Source: Actinophytocola xanthii (GTDB taxonomy: Bacteria > Actinomycetota > Actinomycetes > Mycobacteriales > Pseudonocardiaceae). Taken from it: DNA of 64,000 nt. Positions 87-12,941 of the stretch are shown here, in pieces (within the stretch, counting starts at the first letter, position 1; each line of letters starts with the position of its first letter). A model generated the notes under the pieces. That model did no database searches. It was given only the letters and a program-made list of their open reading frames with translations, and was not told the origin of the DNA. The DNA lies in contig NZ_MSIE01000016.1 of assembly GCF_001921205.1 (NCBI RefSeq), positions 1 through 64,000 of the forward strand. Direction: 5' to 3'. The position numbers and the translations under genes were made by a program.

Positions 87-1946
87 TTAGCTCGTCGCCG
101 CGGCGAACTGGGCGTTGTACAGCCGGCGGTAGGCGCCCTCGCGTTCCAGCAGCTGGTCGTGTGTGCCCTGTTCGACGATCCGGCCCTCCTCCATCACCAG
201 GATCAGGTCCGCGTCCCTGATCGTCGACAGCCGGTGGGCGATGACGAAGCTCGTCCGCGAGGAGCGGAGTGCGGCCATCGCGTGCTGGACCAGCGACTCG
301 GTCCGGGTGTCGACAGAGCTGGTGGCCTCGTCGAGGATCAGCAGGGACGGGCTCGCCAGGAACGCCCTGGCGATCGTCAGCAGCTGCTTCTGGCCGGCGC
401 TGACGTTCGTCCCCTCCTCGTCGATCACCGTGTCGTAGCCGTCGGGCAGGGACCGCACGAACGGGTCGACGAACGTCGCCCTCGCCGCGGCGAGGATCTC
501 CTCCTCGGTGGCCTCGGGGCGGCCGTAGGCGATGTTGTCCCGGATCGTCCCGCCGAACAGCCAGGTGTCCTGGAGCACCATCCCCACCTGGGAACGCAGG
601 TCCTCGCGGCGCATCGAGCGGACGTCGACGCCGTCCAGCGTGATCCGGCCCCCGTCGAGCTCGTAGAACCGCAGGATCAGGTTGACCAGCGTCGTCTTGC
701 CGGCGCCGGTCGGGCCGACGATCGCGACCGTCTGGCCGGGCTCGGCCACCAGCGACAGGTCCTCGATCAGCGGCTGGTCCTCCCGGTAGGAGAAGCTCAC
801 GTGCTCGAACTCGACCCGGCCGCGGCGCTGGGCGGCCACCGCCGCCTCCCGCGGGTCGGGCTCCTGCTCCTCGGCGTCCAGCAGCTCGAACACCCGCTCG
901 GCCGACGCCACCCCGGACTGCATCAGGTTCGCCATCGACGCCACCTGGGTCAGCGGCTGGGTGAACTGCCGCGAGTACTGGATGAACGCCTGCACCTCAC
1001 CCAGCGTCATCGTCCCCGACGTGATCCTCAGGCCGCCGACCACGGCGACCACGACGTAGCTCAGGTTCGACAGGAACATCATCGCCGGCATGATCAGGCC
1101 GGAGATGAACTGCGCGCCGTGCGCCGACTCGAACAGCTCGTCGTTGCGGCGCCGGAACTCCGCCTCCGACTCCCGCTGCCGGCCGAACACCGTGACCAGC
1201 TGGTGGCCGGTGAACGCCTCCTCGATGTGCGCGTTGAGCGCGCCGGTCTGCCGCCACTGCGCGACGAACTTCTTCTGCGCCCGCTTACCGATGACCCCCG
1301 TGACCACCACCGACAGCGGGATCACCGCCAGCGCGATCAGCGCCAGCAGCGGCGAGATCGTCAGCATCATCACGACCACGCCCACCACGGTCAGCAACGA
1401 GGTGAGCAGCTGGCTCAACGTCTGCTGCAGGGTGGTCGAGATGTTGTCGATGTCGTTGGTCACCCGGGACAGCAGCTCCCCGCGCGGCTGGCGGTCGAAG
1501 TAGCGCAGCGGCAGCCGGTGCAGCTTGGCCTCGACGTCCTCGCGCAGCCGGTACACCACGCGCTGCACCACGTCGTTGAGCAGCCGCCCCTGGACCCAAC
1601 CGAACAACGACGACGCCAGGTACAGCCCCAGTACCCAGGTCAGCACGCCGGCCAGCGCCGAGAAGTCGATACCCGCGCCGGGGACGTCCCGCATCCGCGC
1701 GAGCACGCCGCCGAAGATGATGTCCGTGGCGTGCCCGAGCACCTTGGGACCCGCCACGGCAAACGCCACGCTGGCCACGCAGAGCAGGACGACCACGGCG
1801 AGCGCGACCCGCTCCGGGTGCAACCGCGCGGCAAGGCGCTTGGCCGACGGCCCGAAGTTCTTCGGCTTCTCCACCGGCATGCCCATCCCGGGCATTCCCC
1901 GCCCGCCGACGGGGGGCCGCGGACGGGCCTGGGTTGTCGTGCTCAT
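87..1946 (-). CDS. ABC exporter half-transporter, catalytically complete subunit (619 aa)
   Basis: Type IV ABC exporter: an N-terminal six-helix transmembrane domain (about residues 45-345) followed by a nucleotide-binding domain with Walker A GPTGAGKT, signature VSAGQ, Walker B LLILDEATS with the catalytic Glu, and H-loop IAHRLST. The first 40 residues are a Pro/Gly/Met-rich cytoplasmic extension. The ATG at 1946 is preceded by a strong GGGGAGG ribosome site. It lies 133 bases downstream of a second half-transporter whose ATPase site is degenerate, so the two should form a heterodimer with one consensus site, as in TM287/288 or BmrCD. The substrate cannot be read from sequence; drugs or peptides are typical. 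The signature Ser-Ala-Gly in place of Ser-Gly-Gly is itself typical of such heterodimers. Confidence 0.93.
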   Translation of the reverse strand: MSTTTQARPRPPVGGRGMPGMGMPVEKPKNFGPSAKRLAARLHPERVALAVVVLLCVASVAFAVAGPKVLGHATDIIFGGVLARMRDVPGAGIDFSALAGVLTWVLGLYLASSLFGWVQGRLLNDVVQRVVYRLREDVEAKLHRLPLRYFDRQPRGELLSRVTNDIDNISTTLQQTLSQLLTSLLTVVGVVVMMLTISPLLALIALAVIPLSVVVTGVIGKRAQKKFVAQWRQTGALNAHIEEAFTGHQLVTVFGRQRESEAEFRRRNDELFESAHGAQFISGLIMPAMMFLSNLSYVVVAVVGGLRITSGTMTLGEVQAFIQYSRQFTQPLTQVASMANLMQSGVASAERVFELLDAEEQEPDPREAAVAAQRRGRVEFEHVSFSYREDQPLIEDLSLVAEPGQTVAIVGPTGAGKTTLVNLILRFYELDGGRITLDGVDVRSMRREDLRSQVGMVLQDTWLFGGTIRDNIAYGRPEATEEEILAAARATFVDPFVRSLPDGYDTVIDEEGTNVSAGQKQLLTIARAFLASPSLLILDEATSSVDTRTESLVQHAMAALRSSRTSFVIAHRLSTIRDADLILVMEEGRIVEQGTHDQLLEREGAYRRLYNAQFAAATS

Positions 1947-2079
1947 GACAGTTCCGCCTCCCCGGATTCTTCCCTGTTGGTGGGCTTGGGTAGGAAGCGC
2001 TCGGTTTGGGCACGTACTTGCGGCTGGGTTGCGTCACGGTCCCCTGAGCTCACGGTTCTGGAGGTTGACAGAAGGTGTC

Positions 2080-3813
2080 TCATGCGACCTGCTCCGGGGT
2101 GAGCTGGGACTCGACGATCTCGACGTAGGTCGGACACGTGTCGAGCAGTTGGCGGTGGGTTCCGATGCCGACGACCGAGCCGTTGTCCAGCACGACGATC
2201 TGGTCGGCGTCGAGGATGGTCGTGATCCGCTGGGCGACGACGAGCACCGCGGCGTCGCGGGTGTGCGGGCGCAGCGCCGCCCTCAGCTGCGCGTCGGTCT
2301 CGACGTCGAGCGCGGAGAAGGCGTCGTCGAACAGGTAGATCTCCGGCCGGCGGACCAGCGCGCGGGCGATCGCGAGCCGCTGCCGCTGGCCGCCGGAGAC
2401 ATTGGTGCCGCCCTGCGCGATCGCGGCGTCCAGCCCGTCGGGCATCCGCTCGACGAAGTCCCTGGCCTGTGCGATCTCCAGCGCCTGCCACAGCTCCTCG
2501 TCGGTGGCGTCCGGGTTGCCGTAGCGCAGGTTGCTCGCGACGGTCCCGGTGAACAGGTATGCCCGCTGCGGCACCAGGCCGATCCGGGTGCGCAGCACCT
2601 CCTCGTCGAGCTCCCGGACGTCGACGCCGTCGACCAGGACGCTGCCGTCGGTGGCGTCGATGAGCCGCGGGATCAGCGAGAGCAGCGTCGACTTGCCGGC
2701 ACCGGTGCTGCCGATGATCGCCGTGGTCTGGCCGGCGCCGGCCCGGAAGGAGATGTCGCGCAGGACGGGGCTCGCGGCGCCGGGATACCGGAACTCGACA
2801 CCGCGCAGCTCGACCTCAGCCCGCCGGGCCAGCTCGCGCACCGGCTCCAGCGGCGGCCGGACCGAGGACTCGGTGTCCAGCACCTCGTTGATCCGCTCGG
2901 CGCAGACGGCGGCACGCGGGATCATCATCGAGATGAACGTCGCCATCATCACCGACATGAGGATCTGCAGCAGGTAGTTGAGGAACGCGGTCAGCGCCCC
3001 GACCTGCATCTCGCCCGCCTCGACGCGGTAGGCGCCGAACCAGAGAACGGCGATGCCGGAGCCGTTCAGGATGAGCATCACCGTCGGGAAGACCATCGCC
3101 TGGAGCCGGCCGACCCGCAGGGCTGTGTCGGTGAGCGCCGCGTTGGCGTCGGCGAACCGGCGGGTCTCGGCCCGCTCCCGGACGAACGCGCGGACCACGC
3201 GGATACCGGACAGCTGCTCGCGCAGCACCCGGTTCACCACGTCGATCCGGTCCTGCATGGCGCGGAACTGCGGCACCATCCGCCGGATGATCAGTCCGAT
3301 GCAGACGATCAGCAGCGGCACGCAGACCAGCAGCAGCCAGGACAGCCCGACGTCCTCCTGCAACGCCATCACCACCCCGGCGACGCACATGATCGGCGCG
3401 GTGACGAACATCGTGCAGAGCATGGCCACCAACAGCTGCACCTGCTGGACGTCGTTGGTACTGCGCGTGATCAGCGACGGCGGCCCGAACCCGGCGACCT
3501 CCCGCGCCGAGAACCGCCCGACCCGGTGGAAGACCGCGGCCCGCACGTCCCGCCCGAACGCCATCGCGACGCGGGCTCCGAAGTAGACGGCGATGACCGA
3601 GCAGACGATCTGCACGAGCGTGACGACGAGCATCCACCCGCCGGTCGAGACGATGTAGTCGGTGTCCCCGGTCGCGATCCCCCGGTCGATGATGTCGGCG
3701 TTGAGGCTGGGCAGGTAGAGCGAGGCGATCGTCCCGACCAGCTGCAGCACGAGCACGGCGGCGAGCTCCCGCCGGTAGGGCCGCAGGTGGGTACGGAGCA
3801 GACGGCTCAGCAA
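2080..3813 (-). CDS. ABC exporter half-transporter with degenerate ATPase site (577 aa)
   Basis: Transmembrane domain (about residues 15-300) plus nucleotide-binding domain: Walker A GSTGAGKS at 368-375 and canonical signature VSGGQ at 472-476. The Walker B region reads IYLFDDAFS, with Asp in place of the catalytic Glu, and the H-loop reads VAQRITT, with Gln in place of His. These are the hallmarks of the non-catalytic partner in heterodimeric exporters, so this protein probably needs the downstream 619-aa subunit. It is the first gene of a leftward operon divergent from a TetR regulator, which is the likely repressor. Efflux of a toxic compound or antibiotic is the usual role, inferred only from the arrangement. 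Confidence 0.93.
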   Translation of the reverse strand: MLSRLLRTHLRPYRRELAAVLVLQLVGTIASLYLPSLNADIIDRGIATGDTDYIVSTGGWMLVVTLVQIVCSVIAVYFGARVAMAFGRDVRAAVFHRVGRFSAREVAGFGPPSLITRSTNDVQQVQLLVAMLCTMFVTAPIMCVAGVVMALQEDVGLSWLLLVCVPLLIVCIGLIIRRMVPQFRAMQDRIDVVNRVLREQLSGIRVVRAFVRERAETRRFADANAALTDTALRVGRLQAMVFPTVMLILNGSGIAVLWFGAYRVEAGEMQVGALTAFLNYLLQILMSVMMATFISMMIPRAAVCAERINEVLDTESSVRPPLEPVRELARRAEVELRGVEFRYPGAASPVLRDISFRAGAGQTTAIIGSTGAGKSTLLSLIPRLIDATDGSVLVDGVDVRELDEEVLRTRIGLVPQRAYLFTGTVASNLRYGNPDATDEELWQALEIAQARDFVERMPDGLDAAIAQGGTNVSGGQRQRLAIARALVRRPEIYLFDDAFSALDVETDAQLRAALRPHTRDAAVLVVAQRITTILDADQIVVLDNGSVVGIGTHRQLLDTCPTYVEIVESQLTPEQVA

Positions 3814-3905: not shown

Positions 3906-4502
3906 TTGGGTGAGTCCAAGCCCCGACGTCGCGGTGAGCAGCTGGAGCGGGCGATCCTCGAGGCGGCCTGGGAGGAGCTCAACGAGGTGGGCTACGCGGG
4001 GGTGACCATCGAGGCGGTCGCCGCGCGGGCCGGCACGAGCAAGCCGGTGATCTACCGGCGCTGGGCGAACCGGGCGGAGCTGGTGCTGGCCGCGTGGGGG
4101 CGGCAGAGCCCCATGCGCCCCGACTTCAAGGACACCGGGACGCTCCGCGGCGACCTGATGGCGTTGTTCGGCGCGATCGCCCACCGAGCGGACCGAATGA
4201 TGGGCTCGATGATCGCCGGCGTGATGGGCGAGACGTTCCGCCATCCCGAGATGGCCGCCTTGCTGCAGGAACGCCTCAAGTCCCCGCCGATGGTGCAGGT
4301 CATCCAGAAGATCATCGACCGCGCGGTGGCCCGCGGCGAGCTGGCACCGGTCACCGTCTCCCCCCGGGCGGGCCGGGTCCCCCTCGACCTCATCCGCAAC
4401 GAGTCCATGCTCTGCCGCACCCCGGTCCCCGACTCCACCATCGCCGAGCTCGTCGACGAGGTCTACCTCCCCCTGCTTCGCGGCCTCCAGCCGAACAACT
4501 AG
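3906..4502 (+). CDS. TetR/AcrR family transcriptional regulator (198 aa)
   Basis: N-terminal TetR helix-turn-helix (about residues 13-58, with GVTIEAVAARAGTSKPVIYR as the recognition part) followed by an all-helical ligand-binding domain of the TetR_C type. The start is a TTG at 3906; the upstream run TTTAAAGGGGGCAGGG supplies a purine-rich ribosome site. It is divergent from the heterodimeric ABC exporter, so repression of that exporter and of itself, relieved by a pump substrate, is the likely role. The gene is convergent with the next one, leaving 25 bases between them. Confidence 0.9.
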   Translation: MGESKPRRRGEQLERAILEAAWEELNEVGYAGVTIEAVAARAGTSKPVIYRRWANRAELVLAAWGRQSPMRPDFKDTGTLRGDLMALFGAIAHRADRMMGSMIAGVMGETFRHPEMAALLQERLKSPPMVQVIQKIIDRAVARGELAPVTVSPRAGRVPLDLIRNESMLCRTPVPDSTIAELVDEVYLPLLRGLQPNN

Positions 4503-4527: not shown

Positions 4528-7191
4528 TCAGAACCAGGCCGTCTCGTCGGAGTCGGCTTCGAGGTTCGCCAGGCGTTCGCGTACCTCCGCGCTGGCCGGG
4601 CTCCCCGACGTGGCGAGCAGCTCCACGGCCCGCCGGTAGGCGTCGCGCGCGGACTCCGCCTCCCCCGCCGTGCGGTGCAGCTCCGCGGTGACCCACCAGA
4701 TGTCCGCGGCACCCAGTACCGAGCCGACGGCCCGCATCAGGGCTGACGCAGCCTGGAGGAGGGGCAGCGCGCTCCCGGTGCGACCGGTCATGGCCTCGGC
4801 CCTGGCGAGCACGGTGTAGCACCGGGCGAGGTTGTAAGGATCGGGAACGTCCAGACCCCCCAGGTAGGCGCTCGCCGTCCGGGCGTGCCGCACGGCGTCC
4901 TCGGGGCGGCCGGCCGCGATCGACGCCCGCGCGAGGCTGACCAGCACCAAGCCGACGTTGCGGGACTGGTCGAGCGTTCGGTAAAGCGCCAACGCGCGGC
5001 CGAAGCGGTCGATGGCCAGGTCGACCCGACCCTGTTCGAGGTGGACGAAGCCGGTCCGTTCGATCGAGCTCGCGACCCGGACGGGGCGACCGAGCTCCTC
5101 CCAGAACCGGGCCGCACCGGCCATGTGCTCCAGCGCCTCGCCGTAACGGCGGACCGCGTTGAGCGCGAGCCCCAGCCGGTCCTCCGACTCGGCCTCCATC
5201 TCCCGGTCCCCACACCGGCGTGCGGCATCGAGTGCGAGCTCGTCGACCGCCAGCCAGTCCTGGTGGTGCCCGCAGGTCAGGAAGAGACCCCACATGGCGT
5301 CGGCAATCCGCCAGGCCACCGCCGGGGTCCCGACGACCGCCTGTCGAGCGACGGCGTGGAGAACCCGCCGTTCCCGCACCAGCCACCGCAGGGCGGCGAG
5401 GTGATCGGCGAACACCGGCGGTTCGAGTGGAACGTGCTCGACCCGCGGCCGGGTGCGGCGCCGGTGGGGGGTGAGCACCGCGTCGGCGGCAGCCGCCGTG
5501 TACAGGTACCAGTCCGCCAACCGCCGTGTCGCGAGGTGGCGCTCCACGTGCGACTCCTCCGTCTCGGCCCGCTCTCGAGCATGCAGCAGGACCAGGTCGA
5601 GCAACCGGAAGCGCCCGGTCTGCCGCTCCTGCAGGAGGTCCGCGCCCAGCAACTCTTCGAGGCGCTCCTCCGCTTCGGCCGCCCGGGACTGGATGAGCGC
5701 GGCCGCCGCCTCGGCGTCGAAGTCCGGGCCCGGGTGGAGACCGAGAAGCCGGTACAGGCGTGCGGCCCCTGGTGAGAGCTCCCTGTAGGCCCGATCGAAC
5801 ACGGCTCGCACCGACGGTTCGGCGCCGAGGGCGAGCCGGTCCAACCTCCGCCTCTCGTCGAGCAGGTCGGCCACTGCCTGCTGAACGGTCCACTGCCGAC
5901 GGTGGGCGAGCCTCCCGGCGGCGACGACGAGGGCGACGGGGAGGCCGCCGCACAGCTCCACCAGGCGCGCCAAGGCATCAGGCTCGGCGGCGACGCGTGA
6001 CCGACCGACCAGAACGGACATCAGGTGGACGCCGGTTTCGGCGGACAGGGGTCCGAGCTCGATCAGCTGTGCGCCCTCCACGGTCAACGCGTCCAGTCTC
6101 GAGCTGCCGGTGACGACGGTCGTGGTCGTCGATGGCGAGGGCAACAACGCACGTACCTGCCCGAGTGAACCAGCGTGGTCCAGCACGACCAGAATCCTCC
6201 GTCCGGAGGTCACCGTGCGGAACAGGTCGGCCTGCTCGGCGGGATCGGCCGGAAGGGTGACGTCCGGCACGCCGAGTGCTCGCAGGAACCGGCGCAGGAC
6301 CTGTCCGGGAGGAACGGGTGCGAGTGGACCACCCAGGTCCGCGTACAGGCAGCCGTCGACGAACCGGTCCTTCGCCCGGTTCGCCCACCGTACGGCCAGA
6401 GCGCTCTTGCCCACTCCTGGCGGCCCGACGACGAGGACGAGGCCAGGTGCTGCCCGGTCGAGAGCGTCCAGCTCGCGCTCGCGGCCGGCGAAGACGCCGA
6501 GCGACGGCGGAACCTGATGTGGACAGTCCTGTTCGGACTCACGCGCACCCGCCGTCGGCGCCGGAGGAGGTACCACGCCGGACGGCCGGTACATCCACGC
6601 TCGGATCCTGGCTTTCTTGGCCTCCAACGACACGGGGTGGTAGTCGACCGGGTCGAGGTTGCGGTACCGGTGCCTGACGGTCCCCTCGTAGATCGTGTCG
6701 GAGACGACGACGGCCAGGTCGACCGGCGACTCGCGGAGGGAGGCACGAAGCTCGTCGGCGTCTGCCATACGGCAGGCCGTGATCAGGTCGGTCCCGGACA
6801 GGCCGTACCGGTCGGTGGACACCTCGCCCGCGTGGACAGCCAACCGCAGGCGGAACCGCTCACCGACCCGCGCGCTCCGGTTGTGCTCGGCCAGGGCCGC
6901 CGAAAGGCACGAGAGCAGCGGGTCCAGCAGTAAGACCTTGGGTACCAATGGTGATACGAGCACGATCGCGCCGTCGCCGCGGTCCTCGTGGTGACACGAC
7001 TGCCAGGGGATGCCCGCACCGGCGAGGCTCTCGTGGAGCAGGGCGTAGAAACGCTCGCGAAGGACGGTTCTGGAGCTGTCGTCGCGATGCCGGTCCGAGA
7101 AGCCCTCGATGTCGAGGACCAGCATCGACCGGTGTGTGGGGAAGACCTCTGTCCGATGGCTCGGCTCGGCGGACGACGGGCTGGTGCGCAT
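4528..7191 (-). CDS. Nucleotide-cyclase-like domain / STAND-type ATPase / TPR signalling protein (887 aa)
   Basis: Three parts can be seen. Residues 23-200 resemble a class III nucleotide cyclase (DIEGFS at 27-32, RGDG near 71-74, HAGEVSTDRYG near 120), but the usual Val-Asn-x-Ala-Ala-Arg motif is replaced by LITACRM, so the catalytic Asn is missing and activity is doubtful. Residues 230-550 are an NB-ARC/AP-ATPase-like STAND module, with Walker A GPPGVGKS at 256-263 and Walker B ILVVLDHA. The rest is helical tetratricopeptide-type repeats. The chosen ATG (7191) follows the upstream stop by one base (TGACATG) and has GGGGA before it; an ATG at 7203 is also possible. The arrangement suits a ligand- or infection-sensing switch. 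Function not established. Confidence 0.8.
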   Translation of the reverse strand: MRTSPSSAEPSHRTEVFPTHRSMLVLDIEGFSDRHRDDSSRTVLRERFYALLHESLAGAGIPWQSCHHEDRGDGAIVLVSPLVPKVLLLDPLLSCLSAALAEHNRSARVGERFRLRLAVHAGEVSTDRYGLSGTDLITACRMADADELRASLRESPVDLAVVVSDTIYEGTVRHRYRNLDPVDYHPVSLEAKKARIRAWMYRPSGVVPPPAPTAGARESEQDCPHQVPPSLGVFAGRERELDALDRAAPGLVLVVGPPGVGKSALAVRWANRAKDRFVDGCLYADLGGPLAPVPPGQVLRRFLRALGVPDVTLPADPAEQADLFRTVTSGRRILVVLDHAGSLGQVRALLPSPSTTTTVVTGSSRLDALTVEGAQLIELGPLSAETGVHLMSVLVGRSRVAAEPDALARLVELCGGLPVALVVAAGRLAHRRQWTVQQAVADLLDERRRLDRLALGAEPSVRAVFDRAYRELSPGAARLYRLLGLHPGPDFDAEAAAALIQSRAAEAEERLEELLGADLLQERQTGRFRLLDLVLLHARERAETEESHVERHLATRRLADWYLYTAAAADAVLTPHRRRTRPRVEHVPLEPPVFADHLAALRWLVRERRVLHAVARQAVVGTPAVAWRIADAMWGLFLTCGHHQDWLAVDELALDAARRCGDREMEAESEDRLGLALNAVRRYGEALEHMAGAARFWEELGRPVRVASSIERTGFVHLEQGRVDLAIDRFGRALALYRTLDQSRNVGLVLVSLARASIAAGRPEDAVRHARTASAYLGGLDVPDPYNLARCYTVLARAEAMTGRTGSALPLLQAASALMRAVGSVLGAADIWWVTAELHRTAGEAESARDAYRRAVELLATSGSPASAEVRERLANLEADSDETAWF

Positions 7192-7192
7192 G

Positions 7193-8422
7193 TCAGTCCC
7201 CATCCACGAGCCGAGGAACCGGAACCTGGGGCCAGGCAGTGGCTTCCTCCGGTTCGGGCAGCTCCAGCAACCGGTACAGGCACTGGCGGAGGACCTCGGC
7301 GGACTGGCCGCGCATCGCCGCGACTCGCCGGCGCGCGACCCGCCACTGCGCGGGCTGTGCGTGGACGGCCGCCTGGAGCTGCGTGAGGAGCGGCACGTCG
7401 GCCACGAGCCGTGGGCTCACCGCCGCCAGCTCGGCCACCACCGAGGAACTGTCCACGTCGGTCCCGCCGAACGGGCTGAACAGCACGGGCACGCGAGTCG
7501 CGGCCGCATACGCCGCGAGCGAACCGTGGTCGGCGACCAGCAGATCCGCGGCGGCGACGAGCCCACGCCAGTCCTCACCGACGTCGATGAGGTCCACGCC
7601 GACGGCACGGACCTCGCGCATCCAGTTCCGGACCTGACGGGTGCCGTGCTCGGCCCAGACCGCGGGGTGGAGCGTCGCGATCACCCGGTGGTTCGCCGGC
7701 AGCTCCGCCGTCAGCCGCAGCAGCACGTCGCGCTGGGTGGCGATCAGCGAGTGCCGTCCCCACGTCGAGGCGACGGCGACCAGTACCTGAGCGGGCCGGA
7801 CACCCAGGCCGGTGCGGTAGTGCTCGCGCCGGGAGGCGGATGCCAGCAGCCGGTCGAGGCACGGATCGCCGGTGACCAGTGCGTAGGGCACGGACTCCGG
7901 GCACTGCCGGGCAAGGGTCGTGATGTGGTCGGGGTGGGGTACCACCAGGGCGTCGAAGATCGGTCCGCCGACGGCGTCGAGGAGCGACTCCCGGTCCAGG
8001 CCGTAGACCGGGCGGGCGTCGGCGTCGCCGGGCCAGGCCCAGGCGGGCCAGAGCTTGGTGAAACCAGCGCCGTGCGGGGCGGAGAACCGCTTCTTGGCGG
8101 GCACCTCGCCCATCCGGTGGAGGCTCGCGGACACCGTGAGGTCGAACGATCCCTGCACCGCCTCCTGCCAGGGCAGCGTCCGAACCTCGAGCTCGGCCAG
8201 GCACTTCCCGACGCCGTCGCCGAGCCGGTCCGGCACCTGGGTGTACAGGATCTGTAGCCGCGGGTCGCCCTCGACGAGCATGACGTGGTCTTCCAGGCGC
8301 ATCAGGCTGGTGATCGTGTGGACCCCGACGAGCACGGTGCGCTGGTAGGTCCAGGTGGCCCACCGGCGGGCCGTGCTGTCACGTTGTCCGGTGGCATCAG
8401 GGCTCGGCTCTCCACTTTGCAT
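7193..8422 (-). CDS. GT-B-like protein related to CDP-glycerol glycerophosphotransferases, function unknown (409 aa)
   Basis: The protein has the look of a two-domain GT-B fold: an N-terminal half with VLVGVHTITSL and a PHGAG motif near residue 118, and a C-terminal half with VIATLHPAVW, LIDVGED and ADLLVADHGSLAAYAAATRV, which resembles the donor-binding region of TagF/TagB-type polymerases and sugar-nucleotide 2-epimerases. No membrane segment is evident. The ATG at 8422 was chosen because AAAGAGGA sits 8 bases upstream; the open frame continues further without a ribosome site. Its stop is one base from the start of the cyclase-like/STAND gene, so the two are translationally coupled. Substrate unknown; a signalling or conflict role with its partner is only an inference. 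Confidence 0.7.
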   Translation of the reverse strand: MQSGEPSPDATGQRDSTARRWATWTYQRTVLVGVHTITSLMRLEDHVMLVEGDPRLQILYTQVPDRLGDGVGKCLAELEVRTLPWQEAVQGSFDLTVSASLHRMGEVPAKKRFSAPHGAGFTKLWPAWAWPGDADARPVYGLDRESLLDAVGGPIFDALVVPHPDHITTLARQCPESVPYALVTGDPCLDRLLASASRREHYRTGLGVRPAQVLVAVASTWGRHSLIATQRDVLLRLTAELPANHRVIATLHPAVWAEHGTRQVRNWMREVRAVGVDLIDVGEDWRGLVAAADLLVADHGSLAAYAAATRVPVLFSPFGGTDVDSSSVVAELAAVSPRLVADVPLLTQLQAAVHAQPAQWRVARRRVAAMRGQSAEVLRQCLYRLLELPEPEEATAWPQVPVPRLVDGD

Positions 8423-8459
8423 GATCGAAGTCCTCTTTCCGGACAGGCAGCAGCAGACG

Positions 8460-8619
8460 AAATTTCTCAGATTTCTCCGATCCGGGTACGATAGGCCCCA
8501 AGATCTGCAATGCATCGTAATTCGCTGTTGTCACCAGGGACAACGATCTATCGCCGACAATATTCTGATGCCGCCGACAGATCGGATCAGATCTGCGCCG
8601 CCTTCAACCTGAGAAATTT
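8460..8619. repeat. Nested inverted repeats in the 223-bp gap between the GT-B-like gene and the ROK gene
   Basis: An 11-nt perfect inverted repeat (AAATTTCTCAG at 8460-8470, CTGAGAAATTT at 8609-8619) encloses a second one (TCCGATC at 8476-8482, GATCGGA at 8580-8586). Inside are a tandem 9-mer (TTTCTCAGA TTTCTCCGA, 8463-8480), a direct repeat AGATCTGC (8501 and 8589) and a palindrome GTTGTC/GACAAC (8527-8544). The stretch is much more AT-rich than its surroundings. It lies upstream of the leftward GT-B-like gene and probably holds its promoter and operators. Confidence 0.45.
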
Positions 8620-8645: not shown

Positions 8646-9869
8646 TCACTTTTTCCGCGCCGAGGCTTCAACTTCAAGCCCGAACGCGAGTGCACCCCGC
8701 GCTCCGGCCCCTGCGCCCAGTTCGGAGGCGACCACCGTGGTCGGCTCGTTCTCCACGCGAAACACTCCGGGAACGGTGTGTCGACGCATGGACTCGCGAA
8801 GGACGTCGAGCAGAAGATCAGCTGCCCCACCCAACTCGCCGCCCACCACCACGGTCTCCGGGTCCCACAGGGTGCACACGGTGGCCAGCGCGAGGCCGAT
8901 CGTTCGTGCGGCGTCCTCCAGTACGCGACGGCACACCGGATCGCCGCTCTTGGCCCGCTCGACCACACGGTCCAGGGTCGTGGGCAGATCAAGTCGGTAG
9001 CCGGAGTAGGCCTGCCTGACCTGTTCGAGAATTCGCGCGCCTCCGGCAACTGTTTCCAGGCATCCCCGGTTGCCGCACCGACACACCCGACCCTCGGCCT
9101 CCATCGTCAGATGGCCGATCTCGCCCGCGATGCCGTGCCGTCCGCGGAAAATGAGCCCTCTTACGACGAGACCTGCACCGATCCCGGTCGACGCCTTGAC
9201 GTACAGCATCGTCTCGTGGTTTCGACCCGCGCCGTAGACGTATTCTCCGTATGCCGCCAGGTTGGCCTCGTTGTCCACGATCACGGGCGTGTCCGGAAAC
9301 TCGTCATACAAGAATAGCCGCAGGTCACCGCCGACATCCCAGCCGAGAGAGGACGAGACCTGGGTCAACCTGGCCGTCCGGGGGTCGACGGCGGCGGGGA
9401 TCCCGACACCGACGGAGACGATGAGATCGTTGCTCATGCCGATCCGAGCAACCAAATCCTTGGCCAGCCGAGCGGCCTCACGAAAACGCAACGCGACAGG
9501 CTGGTCAGGACCGAAATCAGCGGTCTCGTACTCCAGTGCGACGGCGTCCAGGCGACGGACCCCGATCGTCACCCGACTGTGATCGACCTCTATTCCGACG
9601 GCCACGCCACGGACGTCGCCGAGGTGGACTCGCTTCCCCCGCTCGCCCTCCCCCGTCTCGACCCGAAACACCCCTTCCTGCTGTAGCTCGGCAACGGCGG
9701 TCGAGACGGTGGCAGGCGACAGACGGGTGTCCTTCGCGATGCCGACCTGCGTCCTCGGGCTGATCATCACCGACCGAATGATCTTTCGACGGTTGATGTC
9801 CTTGGCAGTGTCCGAAGTACCACGCAGAAGGGCTCTGGCGTCGAGCGGAGCCCCAGTTCGATCAGTCAT
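8646..9869 (-). CDS. ROK family transcriptional regulator (407 aa)
   Basis: N-terminal winged helix-turn-helix (about residues 20-80, TQVGIAKDTRLSPATVSTAV) followed by a ROK sugar-kinase-like domain: DNEANLAAYGEY, the glycine-rich GIGAGLVVRG, and the zinc-binding CRCGNRGCLE motif near residue 265. This is the NagC/XylR class of sugar-responsive repressors. The ATG at 9869 has only a weak ribosome site; the frame stays open further upstream but without family similarity. It is divergent from the lasso peptide genes and upstream of the leftward GT-B-like gene, so it could regulate either, or an unlinked sugar regulon. Effector unknown. Confidence 0.88.
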   Translation of the reverse strand: MTDRTGAPLDARALLRGTSDTAKDINRRKIIRSVMISPRTQVGIAKDTRLSPATVSTAVAELQQEGVFRVETGEGERGKRVHLGDVRGVAVGIEVDHSRVTIGVRRLDAVALEYETADFGPDQPVALRFREAARLAKDLVARIGMSNDLIVSVGVGIPAAVDPRTARLTQVSSSLGWDVGGDLRLFLYDEFPDTPVIVDNEANLAAYGEYVYGAGRNHETMLYVKASTGIGAGLVVRGLIFRGRHGIAGEIGHLTMEAEGRVCRCGNRGCLETVAGGARILEQVRQAYSGYRLDLPTTLDRVVERAKSGDPVCRRVLEDAARTIGLALATVCTLWDPETVVVGGELGGAADLLLDVLRESMRRHTVPGVFRVENEPTTVVASELGAGAGARGALAFGLEVEASARKK

Positions 9870-10410
9870 TACTGCCACGCCCCAGTCTTCAGCATGAACA
9901 GCCGCAGTCGCCAGATTTAAGGGTAGCCGCAACGAGCCCTCACGGAGGCGTGTTCGCATGCCGCTCCGGCAACGATCAGACACACACCGCAACGGCCGCG
10001 AGCGCGACGGCGAAGAACCCGCCGGGCTCGAGCCGCCCGGCGGCCCTGGAGCGGTCGACGGCCTCGGGCAACACGTACGCTCCCCAACTTGTCGCGAATA
10101 CGGCAGCACATCGCGCCGAGCATCCCGGCGATGCCATCCAGAACGATAAATCTTACGGCTCCTCCAGCAACCAGCACGAGGAACTCGGCGGCACCGGCCG
10201 GCTTCAGAGCAGCAATCGAACCAGATTCCACGACAGTGGTAGCGATGACCGTACGTCGACATGACAGCGCCCAGATTCCGTGACAAGATCCCTTGCAGTA
10301 GGTGAAAGCGGCAAGCAGTGCCAAGCGATCATTACCCTCTGTTCCGAGCACGCCCACTCTCGGTGGGTTCGATTCGCACCGATCGAGGCACGAGACACAC
10401 CCGATAGGCG
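9870..10410. other. Long non-coding interval between the ROK regulator and the lasso peptide genes
   Basis: About 540 bases of lower-GC DNA with no convincing gene: the open frames here lack ribosome sites, typical codon bias and recognisable domains. It must contain the ROK promoter, and at its right end the promoter of the lasso genes. The drop in GC compared with neighbours is consistent with acquired or decaying DNA, but that is an impression rather than a measurement. Confidence 0.5.
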
Positions 10411-10439
10411 CTTACCTCCACCGAAAAGTGCCCTACACT
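10411..10439 (+). promoter_or_regulatory. Candidate promoter for the lasso peptide genes (leaderless)
   Basis: A TACACT hexamer (10434-10439) fits the actinobacterial -10 pattern TAnnnT; a weak -35-like CTTACC (10411-10416) sits 17 bases upstream. Transcription would begin near 10446-10448, on the GTG proposed as precursor start, giving a leaderless mRNA. This would explain why that GTG has no ribosome site. Confidence 0.4.
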
Positions 10440-10447
10440 GGTCGCCC

Positions 10448-10636
10448 GTGTCTCTACTCAATCGCCTTTGCGCGCTTGTTTCCGCCTGTGATTCCGCACT
10501 CCTCAGGAGACCTGGGAAAACCGCCTTCGGGAGCGAATACTCCCCCCCATCAGTGGAGGACGAAGGCAAGTCGGAAGACGTCGTACGAGGTAGCGCAAGT
10601 GGCTCCTCGGACGCGAACGGCCAGAGCTACCACTAG
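10448..10636 (+). CDS. Candidate lasso peptide precursor (62 aa; 47-aa leader, 15-aa core)
   Basis: The small frame ends 5 bases before the lasso cyclase. Its leader ends YSPPSVEDEGKSEDVVR, which keeps the spacing of the lasso leader signature Tyr-x2-Pro-x-Leu-x3-Gly-x7 before the core (compare lariatin): Tyr-17, Pro-14, Val-12 for Leu and Gly-8 all fall where expected. The predicted core is GSASGSSDANGQSYH: Gly1 can be joined to Asp8, an allowed 8-residue ring, leaving a 7-residue tail ending in His. Two usual features are missing: the Thr at -2 is Val, and the leader aromatic at -6 is Ser. The only in-frame start close by is GTG 10448, without a ribosome site but right at the predicted transcription start. 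The first part of the leader has poor coding bias, so the true start is uncertain. The role assignment rests on motif spacing plus position. Confidence 0.55.
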   Translation: MSLLNRLCALVSACDSALLRRPGKTAFGSEYSPPSVEDEGKSEDVVRGSASGSSDANGQSYH

Positions 10637-10641
10637 CGACC

Positions 10642-12234
10642 ATGAAATCAGAGAAATCACCCACTGCGCAAGGATTAATCTCGGCCACCGGAAGCTGGGA
10701 GCAGTCCCGCCGACCCGGCCCTACCTCGGCGATGACCCCCACGGAAAGGACATCTTTGCTGGTCATGACAGGATCAGGTGCTGACGCGCTGAGCGCCGCA
10801 GGTGCGCCGGAGCGGCCGGCCGGGACGCGCGGCGGCGACTGCTGGACCTCGCTCGTCGGGAACGCCGTCTGTCCCGGCGCAGGTGACGCGCTCGGTACCG
10901 GAAATCGGTGCGGGGAGATTAGTCGCGCCGCAGGGAATACCGTGCCGACAGAGCGTACACACGATCTTCGGGATAGCCTCGCCTACGGAACACCCATCCC
11001 GCGCGGCGACTGGACCATTGCCGCGACACGCCTCCGACGGGCACTGCTCCACTCGACACAGCGACGCCGCTCTGAAACGTCAATCCTGAGCGCCGACTTC
11101 AGCGGCGGAATCGATTCGTCCTCACTCGCGTTCCTGGCAGCGAACGGGAGAGAGAACGTTCACTGCCTGACGTCCCGCTCGTTCGGCAATCCCGATCACG
11201 ACGACGTCCGGTGTGCGTCGCGATTCGTCCGGCTCCGGCGCGAACTGACCCATCTGGTCGTTCCGGAAAGCGAGGAGCAACTCCCGTTCGCGGACCGGCA
11301 GGCGAGCGTGGACCAGCCCTGTGCCGCGCCATTCTTCGTCGGGCCGACAAAAGCCCGGCTGGCCATGGCCCGCGAACTCGGCAGCACCGGCCACCTGGTC
11401 GGAGAAGGCGGAGACGTGCTGTTCTCACCACCCCCGATCTATCTCGCGGATCTCGCCCGAAACGGACAATTCCCGATGTTGTGGCGGCACTGCCTCGCCT
11501 GGGCACGGCTACGCACCCGCTCCCCCCATCAGCTGTTCCGACGGGCGATGACGGTCGGCGTCCGTGGCTGGCGAGGCGAACTCCGCACCCTCGCCTCGCG
11601 GATCGAGACGGGCCGGCCCGCGGGCCGGGAGTCCTGGGAGGACGACTGGATCGCGTACTGGCCCCGCCCCCAGGCGGACTGGCTGACCGTGCGCGCCCGC
11701 CACGCCCTCGCCGGGCAGCTCCGCGAGGCCGCCCGGCGGGGAGACCCGGCACAGGACTCCGCCTGCGCGGACGTGGTGACCCGTGCCTGGCTCCGGCACC
11801 AGTCGCGGACAATGGACGTGGTCCGACACCTGGGCGCGGAGTTGGGTATCGAGGTCCACGCCCCGTTCCTGGACCCGGACGTGGTGCGGGCCGCCTTGTC
11901 CGTACCGGCCCACCTGCGGGCCGACCCCACAGCACCCAAACGCCTCCTCCGCTGCGCGCTCACCGGCCTGGTGCCCGACTGCGTCCTGTCCCGCCGAACC
12001 AAGGGCGACTACAGCGGTGACGCCTACCGAGGAGTCCGGGCGGCGGCGCCGTGGCTGCGGCGGCTGCTGGCCGACCCGGCCGTCGCCGACCACGGGATGA
12101 TCGAACCCGCGCCGGTGCGTGCCGTGCTCGAGGCCGCGATCGAGGGCCGGCCCGTCCCCTGGGGTCCCTTCACCCAGCTGCTCGCGTTGGAGGTCTGGCT
12201 TCGGGGGACGCGAACAGCGGTGGCCCCGCCGTGA
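10642..12234 (+). CDS. Lasso peptide macrolactam synthetase (asparagine synthase-like C protein), atypical N-terminus (530 aa)
   Basis: The C-terminal 380 residues are a clear asparagine synthase-type ATP-dependent ligase of the lasso cyclase kind: PP-loop SGGIDSS at 154-160, GEGGDVLF, HAPFLDPDVVRAAL and RRTKGDYSGDAYRG, the last two typical of lasso C proteins. It would adenylate the Asp side chain of the core and close the ring on Gly1. Normal lasso cyclases carry an N-terminal glutamine-amidotransferase-like domain of roughly 200 residues; here only about 150 low-complexity residues precede the PP-loop and none resemble it. The ATG at 10642 lacks a ribosome site but is 5 bases after the precursor stop; a TTG at 10756 with GGAAAGGA upstream is an alternative. 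Either the N-domain has decayed or the locus uses a shortened cyclase. Confidence 0.85.
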   Translation: MKSEKSPTAQGLISATGSWEQSRRPGPTSAMTPTERTSLLVMTGSGADALSAAGAPERPAGTRGGDCWTSLVGNAVCPGAGDALGTGNRCGEISRAAGNTVPTERTHDLRDSLAYGTPIPRGDWTIAATRLRRALLHSTQRRRSETSILSADFSGGIDSSSLAFLAANGRENVHCLTSRSFGNPDHDDVRCASRFVRLRRELTHLVVPESEEQLPFADRQASVDQPCAAPFFVGPTKARLAMARELGSTGHLVGEGGDVLFSPPPIYLADLARNGQFPMLWRHCLAWARLRTRSPHQLFRRAMTVGVRGWRGELRTLASRIETGRPAGRESWEDDWIAYWPRPQADWLTVRARHALAGQLREAARRGDPAQDSACADVVTRAWLRHQSRTMDVVRHLGAELGIEVHAPFLDPDVVRAALSVPAHLRADPTAPKRLLRCALTGLVPDCVLSRRTKGDYSGDAYRGVRAAAPWLRRLLADPAVADHGMIEPAPVRAVLEAAIEGRPVPWGPFTQLLALEVWLRGTRTAVAPP

Positions 12235-12941
12235 CCGGCTTCGCGGTACCCGAGCGCGCCCGGATGGGGCGGGACGAGTCCGGTCGGCTCGTGGTGCTCA
12301 ACCGGGCAACCGGCCGCTGGCACATCATCAACCGGACCGGGGCCGAGGTCGTCGACCGGCTCGTCGACGGCGTCGACATCGACCGGGTGGCGGCACTGCT
12401 GGCGCAACGTCACACCGGCGTCAGCGTCGAGCAGGTCCGGGAGGACGTGGTCCGGCTCGTCGACGGTCTCGTTCGCCGCGGTCTGCTCGAGCTGCGACCC
12501 GAACGCGGGACCTCCGCCGTCCTGATGAGCCTGCCCGGTTACGAGGAGGCCGCCCCCACCGCCACCCACCGCATCGCCGCGGTGGTGGCGCTCCCCGTCG
12601 CGCTGGTTCTGCTCCGGCTGCCGTTCCGGGCCCAGGTCCGCGCGGTCGCGGTCGGCAAGAGCCTGCTGGGCGCCCGCGACGCGGACGACCTCGACGTGCG
12701 GCGGTGCCTGTCGGCCGTGCGCTGGGCCGGCACCCACTACCCAGGCCGGTTCGCCTGCCTCGAACAGTCGCTCACCGCCGTACTCACGGCAGCACTGCTC
12801 CGGCGACGAGCCGACTGGTGTTTCGGGTTCTCGAGCGATCCGACCACCATGCACGCCTGGGTGGAGGCGGGAGGACACCCGGTCACCGGAGTCCTCGACG
12901 CCCCGCTCGAGAAGACGTATCGCAAGGTGTACGCCGTCTGA
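12231..12941 (+). CDS. Fused lasso peptide RRE (B1) and leader peptidase (B2) (236 aa)
   Basis: Residues 1-90 form a PqqD-like RiPP recognition element (RLVVLNRATGRWHIINRTG and the following helices), which binds the leader peptide. Residues 100-236 are the transglutaminase-like lasso leader peptidase: Cys176 in RFACLEQSL, His208 in MHAWVE, and a likely third residue Asp223. B1 and B2 are separate genes in most actinobacterial lasso clusters, so this is a fusion. The GTG start overlaps the cyclase stop by 4 bases (GTGA), making translation coupled. No dedicated lasso ABC exporter gene follows: the next gene is an opposite-strand cutC 6 bases away. Confidence 0.9.
   Translation: MTGFAVPERARMGRDESGRLVVLNRATGRWHIINRTGAEVVDRLVDGVDIDRVAALLAQRHTGVSVEQVREDVVRLVDGLVRRGLLELRPERGTSAVLMSLPGYEEAAPTATHRIAAVVALPVALVLLRLPFRAQVRAVAVGKSLLGARDADDLDVRRCLSAVRWAGTHYPGRFACLEQSLTAVLTAALLRRRADWCFGFSSDPTTMHAWVEAGGHPVTGVLDAPLEKTYRKVYAV

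Follow-up and report, generated by a model that had tools for sequence, protein, structure and literature searches.

A conserved family of hydrophilic-core lasso peptide genes beside a ROK regulator, with a probably decaying member in Actinophytocola xanthii

The window analysed here, a stretch of 64,000 nucleotides from Actinophytocola xanthii (Pseudonocardiaceae; assembly GCF_001921205.1, contig NZ_MSIE01000016.1, positions 1 to 64,000), carries at 10448-12941 what is, by its gene content, a genuine lasso peptide gene set: a precursor frame, a lasso cyclase and a fused RRE-peptidase, here called B. The account that we favour, and consider probable as a whole, is that these genes belong to a conserved lasso family of soil actinobacteria with small, hydrophilic cores, that in intact relatives the family is controlled by a divergently placed ROK regulator, and that the copy in the window is probably decaying. 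The lasso genes are as follows.

10448-10636, plus strand: lasso precursor frame, 62 aa if the start is GTG 10448 (profile match, homology to 15 relatives).
10642-12234, plus strand: lasso cyclase, Asn-synthase-like, 530 aa (Pfam PF00733, partial match to NCBIfam NF033561, AlphaFold2 (AF2) model).
10642-10980, plus strand: what is apparently left of the N-terminal (glutaminase-like) cyclase domain after erosion (N-domain profile, codon-position GC).
12231-12941, plus strand: fused RRE (PqqD-like) and transglutaminase-like leader peptidase (B1-B2), 236 aa (Pfam, NCBIfam).

The original prediction, made from the DNA letters, had placed a precursor, a cyclase and a fused RRE-peptidase at these sites. 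All three are present and the reading is supported. The cyclase motifs SGGIDSS (with SGG at 11101), HAPFLD and RRTKGDYS are read in the 10642-12234 frame, the proposed coupling of cyclase and B by a GTGA overlap is seen at 12231-12234, and Cys176 and His208 of B are where they were claimed to be. The cyclase matches Asn_synthase (PF00733) at 3.3e-36, and its alignment with 14 relatives identifies columns that are invariant in all of them and in the window, as expected of a genuine catalytic domain. The B protein matches PqqD (the RRE; PF05402) at 1e-10 and Transglut_core3 (PF13471) at 1.5e-18, and exceeds the cut-off of NCBIfam lasso_biosyn_B2 (NF033537).

The window was compared with 80 loci containing related cyclases, the best 80 of 436 relatives, which are numbered with the prefix L. 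Precursors were collected from upstream frames by a YxxP-leader pattern, which returned one in 54 of the 80 loci and misses some, such as that of L076, whose precursor is visible otherwise. The 15 nearest loci (L035-L048 and L111; the close loci) all have a YxxP-leader precursor upstream, so that the homologous precursor that ought to stand beside related cyclases if the prediction was sound is present in every one of them. A B homologue adjoins the cyclase in all 15 (36-48% identical). A tree was calculated from 46 of 81 cyclase catalytic domains (the window, L035-L079 without L060, and L111), and places the window in a clade of 16 with support 100/99; the row closest to it, with 53% identity, is L039 (Actinokineospora auranticolor). 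The sister group comprises 18 rows, eight from Streptomyces and the rest from Amycolatopsis, Saccharothrix, Actinomadura and more. Cores of the GSSSSGNADANSQYYW type occur in 14 of these 18 rows, plus L076; L058, L062 and L066 yielded none.

The open frame 10280-10636 terminates in YSPPSVEDEGKSEDVVR, the end of the leader, followed directly by the core GSASGSSDANGQSYH at 10589-10633; the leader motif YxxPxV...G occupies -17 to -8. Lasso precursors have a YxxP leader, a small residue at core position 1 and Asp or Glu at positions 7-9, and the window precursor has each of these. A leader-plus-core profile of the 15 close relatives matches it with E=3.5e-10, the runner-up scoring 1.6 among 1009 frames (the stop-to-stop frames of the window, each trimmed to its last 60 aa); with a profile of all 54 precursors the values are 3.4e-9 and 2.8 for the second-best frame. 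The precursor itself matches no Pfam or NCBIfam family. It could be argued that this is a chance frame and that the cyclase serves another peptide, since the frame lacks a ribosome site and has a weak codon signature (see below). The gap between the two best profile scores makes this extremely improbable, as does the position of the frame directly upstream of the cyclase, which is the same in all 15 close relatives.

The cores of the close relatives have Gly1 in 15 of 15 cases and Asp8 in 14, L036 having Glu8-Asp9, which backs the predicted eight-residue ring closed on Asp8. The core is less exceptional than was first implied: close cores occur in Lentzea, Actinokineospora, Actinophytocola and others, and that of Lentzea albida and L. 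waywayandensis, GSASGSSDASGQSFN, is identical to GSASGSSDANGQSYH at 12 of 15 positions. Because of this identity to the L. albida core, the window core is taken, on sequence grounds, as a member of a Pseudonocardiaceae family whose cores are rich in Ser and Gly and have Asp8. The tails of the L037, L038 and L040 cores (ANGQQN, DSGQED and GNNQED) contain no aromatic residue at all, which is hard to square with retention of the thread by a bulky plug.

In the mechanism proposed, the RRE half of B would capture the leader through YxxPxV, and the Cys/His peptidase half would cut immediately before Gly1. The cyclase would then activate Asp8 and join it to Gly1, giving an eight-residue ring with a seven-residue tail. 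For the threaded product, core minus water, the [M+H]+ predicted from GSASGSSDANGQSYH is 1406.557.

The original prediction took in three genes only, and overlooked the conserved ROK, GT-B and STAND neighbours. These, and two candidate operator sites flanking the ROK gene, are the following.

8646-9869, minus strand: ROK-family regulator, divergent from the lasso genes, whose N-terminal part is winged-helix-like (Pfam, synteny).
7193-8515, minus strand: GT-B-fold protein (GT), closest fold TagF, a wall teichoic acid polymerase of CDP-glycerol type (AF2, Foldseek).
4528-7203, minus strand: STAND-type NB-ARC/TPR protein, overlapping the end of the GT gene (Pfam NB-ARC, TPR).
9887-9899, strandless: CTTCAGCATGAAC, perhaps a degraded form of the putative ROK operator, three mismatches to CTTCRANTYGAAG (position).
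8602-8614, strandless: possible degraded second operator in the ROK-GT gap, three mismatches (position matches relatives).

The ROK gene product matches Pfam ROK (PF00480) at 4.1e-51, with helix-turn-helix models below their cut-offs. A homologue is found by tblastn in 40 of the 80 related loci. It stands in the same divergent place in all 15 close loci (49-64% identity), upstream of the cyclase and in the same direction in 22 further loci, and elsewhere in L058, L095 and L106; it thus adjoins the lasso genes in 37 of the 80. Among L049-L088, Streptomyces, Saccharothrix, Amycolatopsis and others combine near-identical GSSSSGNADANSQYYW-type cores with an upstream ROK gene in the same direction. 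L058 is a second related cyclase in Actinophytocola xinjiangensis, whose genome also has L041; no YxxP precursor is found upstream of it by the patterns used, and the ROK homologue of this locus is some 5 kb downstream.

A palindrome, CTTCRANTYGAAG, was first read off the gaps between ROK and precursor and then counted with at most one mismatch. It occurs upstream of ROK in 14 of the 15 close loci (the exception is L036) and in the ROK-GT gap of 10 of the 11 close loci that have a GT gene (the exception is L047); three additional sites lie elsewhere, in L038, L040 and L044. The expectation from first-order Markov resamples is 0.07 per 15 kb. Because the pattern was derived from the sites upstream of ROK, those in the ROK-GT gap provide independent support. 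The distant loci with ROK in the same direction form a further independent set, and 12 of the 22 have the palindrome either in the 250 bases preceding ROK or in the interval from ROK to the cyclase. Among the loci with no ROK match it occurs anywhere in 5 of 40, one of them being L065, where it lies upstream of the precursor. The remaining 10 of the 22 same-direction loci, which lack it by the criterion used, tell against the proposed ROK control. On these sequence patterns ROK most likely binds CTTCRANTYGAAG in intact relatives; it would occupy the copies upstream of the ROK and GT genes, and a sugar ligand bound to ROK would bring about its release from them.

The window has no copy of CTTCRANTYGAAG with one mismatch or fewer in the ROK-precursor gap or the ROK-GT gap, and the best sites there have three mismatches. 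These two sites are not above chance when taken alone, there being 45 sites with up to three mismatches in the window. A one-mismatch site is present at 8666, inside the coding end of ROK.

The cyclase also departs from its relatives. It aligns with positions 188-559 of the 561 in NF033561 and scores 239.4 bits, below the cut-off of 300; L035, L041, L045 and L056 score above 300, and L042, at 299.2, falls short by 0.8 bits. The first approximately 120 residues are unlike a normal cyclase N-terminus and the first half of the N-terminal domain is missing: an N-domain profile from 23 relatives matches the window at its positions 105-187 of 188 only, and in the cyclase frame alone. A frameshift was considered as the cause and rejected, as no other frame of 10300-11200 matches the profile. 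The distance from the precursor stop to SGG is 464 nt, compared with 514-669 in the 15 relatives. The difference in GC content between third and second codon positions (GC3-GC2) is -0.01 for 10642-10980, compared with +0.14 to +0.40, and +0.10 over the last 50 precursor codons, compared with +0.14 to +0.42; for both regions the window has the lowest codon-position signal of the 16. GC3 of ROK is 0.75, while that of the relatives is 0.79-0.96. In the AF2 model of the cyclase, pLDDT is below 50 at residues 1-66 and 86-121, with residues 124-526, approximately, mostly well folded. None of the possible start codons of the precursor has a ribosome-site-like sequence before it, GTG 10448 being bare, whereas all 15 relatives have such a start. 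The terminal branch of the window (0.71) is the longest of its clade. At otherwise invariant columns the window has six private changes in the cyclase, the most of the 16, and 14 in ROK, second after L047 (20). Taken together, these patterns suggest that the window copy is probably decaying, with part of the cyclase N-domain, the start signal of the precursor and the operators having been worn away in this strain, and with the frames of the core, the catalytic cyclase domain, B, ROK and GT still open.

Several observations do not sit easily with decay. Every frame is open, with no stops or frameshifts, and the core conforms exactly to the family pattern, which neutral decay would eventually spoil; the codon signature is normal in B and in the catalytic domain of the cyclase. 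Private changes are unremarkable in B (five, as in L037, and fewer than the nine of L047) and in GT (two, compared with 12 in L047 and six in L045); L047 exceeds the window in ROK, B and GT alike and yet has an intact N-domain. Its end branch is 0.69, and missing sister genomes could explain the long branch of the window. The cyclase model rests on an alignment of 17 rows and stands without a control model of an intact relative. Some of these points fit a different explanation, that of a fully working divergent cluster, in which the precursor would have a leaderless start at GTG 10448 and the cyclase would be active although its N-terminal domain is incomplete. Such a start would be permitted by the hexamer TACACT, which lies at 10434-10439, eight bases upstream of this GTG, and the replacement of T by V at -2 of the leader has a precedent in L065. 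The N-part of the cyclase is nevertheless without codon-position signature and predicted to be disordered, and the N-domain is kept in the alignment of the 15 close relatives; we regard a fully working cluster as a doubtful, though not negligible, prospect. Probable decay remains the preferred interpretation, and the signs of it in the cyclase N-terminus, the precursor start and the operator, which the original prediction had overlooked, make a working product from this copy doubtful.

The GT protein falls under the cut-off of the Pfam model Glyphos_transf (0.0043). Its AF2 model has a mean pLDDT of 83, and the best Foldseek match is TagF (2.3e-11, TM 0.54), with other GT-B enzymes also near. 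Homologues are found in 11 of the 15 close loci, seven at 59-63% and four at 29-34% identity; none was found in L042, L043, L048 and L111. The GT-B protein might conceivably modify the serine-rich peptide, which would make the product of the family a glyco- or glycerophospho-lasso. The frequency and TagF-like fold of the GT would suit this proposal, as would the serine glycosylation of other lasso peptides, which one review mentions (PMC13352647), and the phosphoglycosylated lasso peptide pseudomycoidin, mentioned in a second one (PMC8498205). Against it, the two Lentzea loci with the cores nearest to that of the window, L042 and L111, are without a GT homologue, and the protein could serve the cell wall or another product. 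Decoration by the GT is thus considered unlikely.

The STAND gene is, by sequence, a conserved partner of the lasso genes. Some STAND-homologous part is present in 14 of the 15 close loci, the short contig of L037 having none: near full-length homologues lie on the far side of B in five (48-51% identity), the ATPase/TPR part is found in four, and a fragment at the locus edge in one. In the four Lentzea loci (L042, L043, L048 and L111) the N-terminal approximately 200 residues alone are matched, by a separate stretch beside ROK; the L042 protein concerned matches no Pfam family. The window protein falls far under the cut-offs of the AfsR and HaaT models.

The nearest named type to the window cluster is albusnodin, NF033561 (the albusnodin/ikarugamycin family macrolactam cyclase) being the best NCBIfam model for the window cyclase. 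PMC9266682 lists the albusnodin genes as albA, albB, albC and albT, which suggests a single B gene there too, as in the window. According to the same paper, and to PMC8498205, the acetyltransferase acts on Lys10; the window core has Asn10 at that position, and a Pfam scan of 13 window proteins located between 90 and 19982, lasso genes included, shows no acetyltransferase. The ROK and GT partners are a further difference from albusnodin.

For Streptomyces fildesensis So13.3, the text seen of PMC6522549 describes a predicted lasso peptide with the ring GSSSSGNAD and no isolated product. The locus concerned, L055, belongs to the sister group, where 16 of the 18 loci, L055 among them, have an upstream ROK homologue. 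Its peptide, like others with GSSSSGNADANSQYYW-type cores, has a nine-residue ring and an aromatic tail, in contrast to the eight-residue ring of the window; its ROK gene, which goes unmentioned in that text, points in the same direction as the cyclase, while that of the window is divergent. The closest counterparts are L042 (Lentzea albida), L111 (L. waywayandensis), L039 (Actinokineospora auranticolor) and L041 (Actinophytocola xinjiangensis), all on genome contigs that carry no annotation. They share the core pattern, the divergent ROK and the fused B, and differ from the window in that the cyclase N-domain is complete, the precursors start behind a ribosome site and the palindromes have no or one mismatch. 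For Lentzea, the portion consulted of PMC9120177 names citrulassin, achromosin and low-similarity clusters, and the window core type was not seen in it.

No description of a ROK-lasso cassette was found in the literature searched, and nothing on a lasso cyclase with a glutaminase or N-terminal domain. Core fragments were found there in PMC6522549 only; supplementary tables of lasso-mining surveys, which may well list such cores, were outside this search. A mention of rok together with a lasso peptide precursor proved to be a disrupted Bacillus subtilis gene.

To our knowledge, the switches that turn lasso clusters on are mostly unknown. A ROK gene beside the lasso genes, with a repeated palindrome, offers a concrete handle for the activation of silent clusters, namely the question of which sugar would cause the release, and the locus family points to a group of hydrophilic lassos. 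The ROK-lasso cassette is more interesting than the window copy. The latter is genuine and of a known kind but probably decaying, and its main value lies in showing what is probably natural erosion and in allowing the need for the cyclase N-domain to be tested. A bolder generalization, which we put forward as speculation and think improbable, is that ROK, as a sugar sensor, directly controls a lasso family widespread in actinobacteria through CTTCRANTYGAAG, with one clade coupled to a TagF-like transferase, and that the very hydrophilic peptide, instead of being a typical antibiotic, is gated by sugar and acts at the cell surface or as a signal; the window cyclase, if active, would then show the complete N-terminal domain to be dispensable.

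As to distribution, B was found in two of six Actinophytocola genomes, that of the window counted, and a cyclase match at E<=1e-30 in 50 of the 297 genomes of the family searched. Elsewhere in the genome of the window, the search for a second lasso system gave weak matches only (27-30% identity), and DNA comparison revealed no plasmid relatives.

Further out, the window carries two ABC half-transporter genes at 90-3813 with a TetR gene adjoining (3906-4502), which give no sign of lasso membership. The ABC pair was considered as a lasso exporter and set aside: the genes are real, but homologues (E<=1e-10) occur in 6 of the 80 loci only, and in one of the 15 close loci, L047, where they lie past B, over 1 kb away. 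None of the 80 related loci has homologues of the TetR and CutC neighbours. Among ten flanking proteins from L041, L042, L050, L055 and L056 there were no common tailoring genes; one had no match, and the matches of the others were mixed, including a Clp protease, an AMP-binding enzyme, an aldo/keto reductase and a stress protein.

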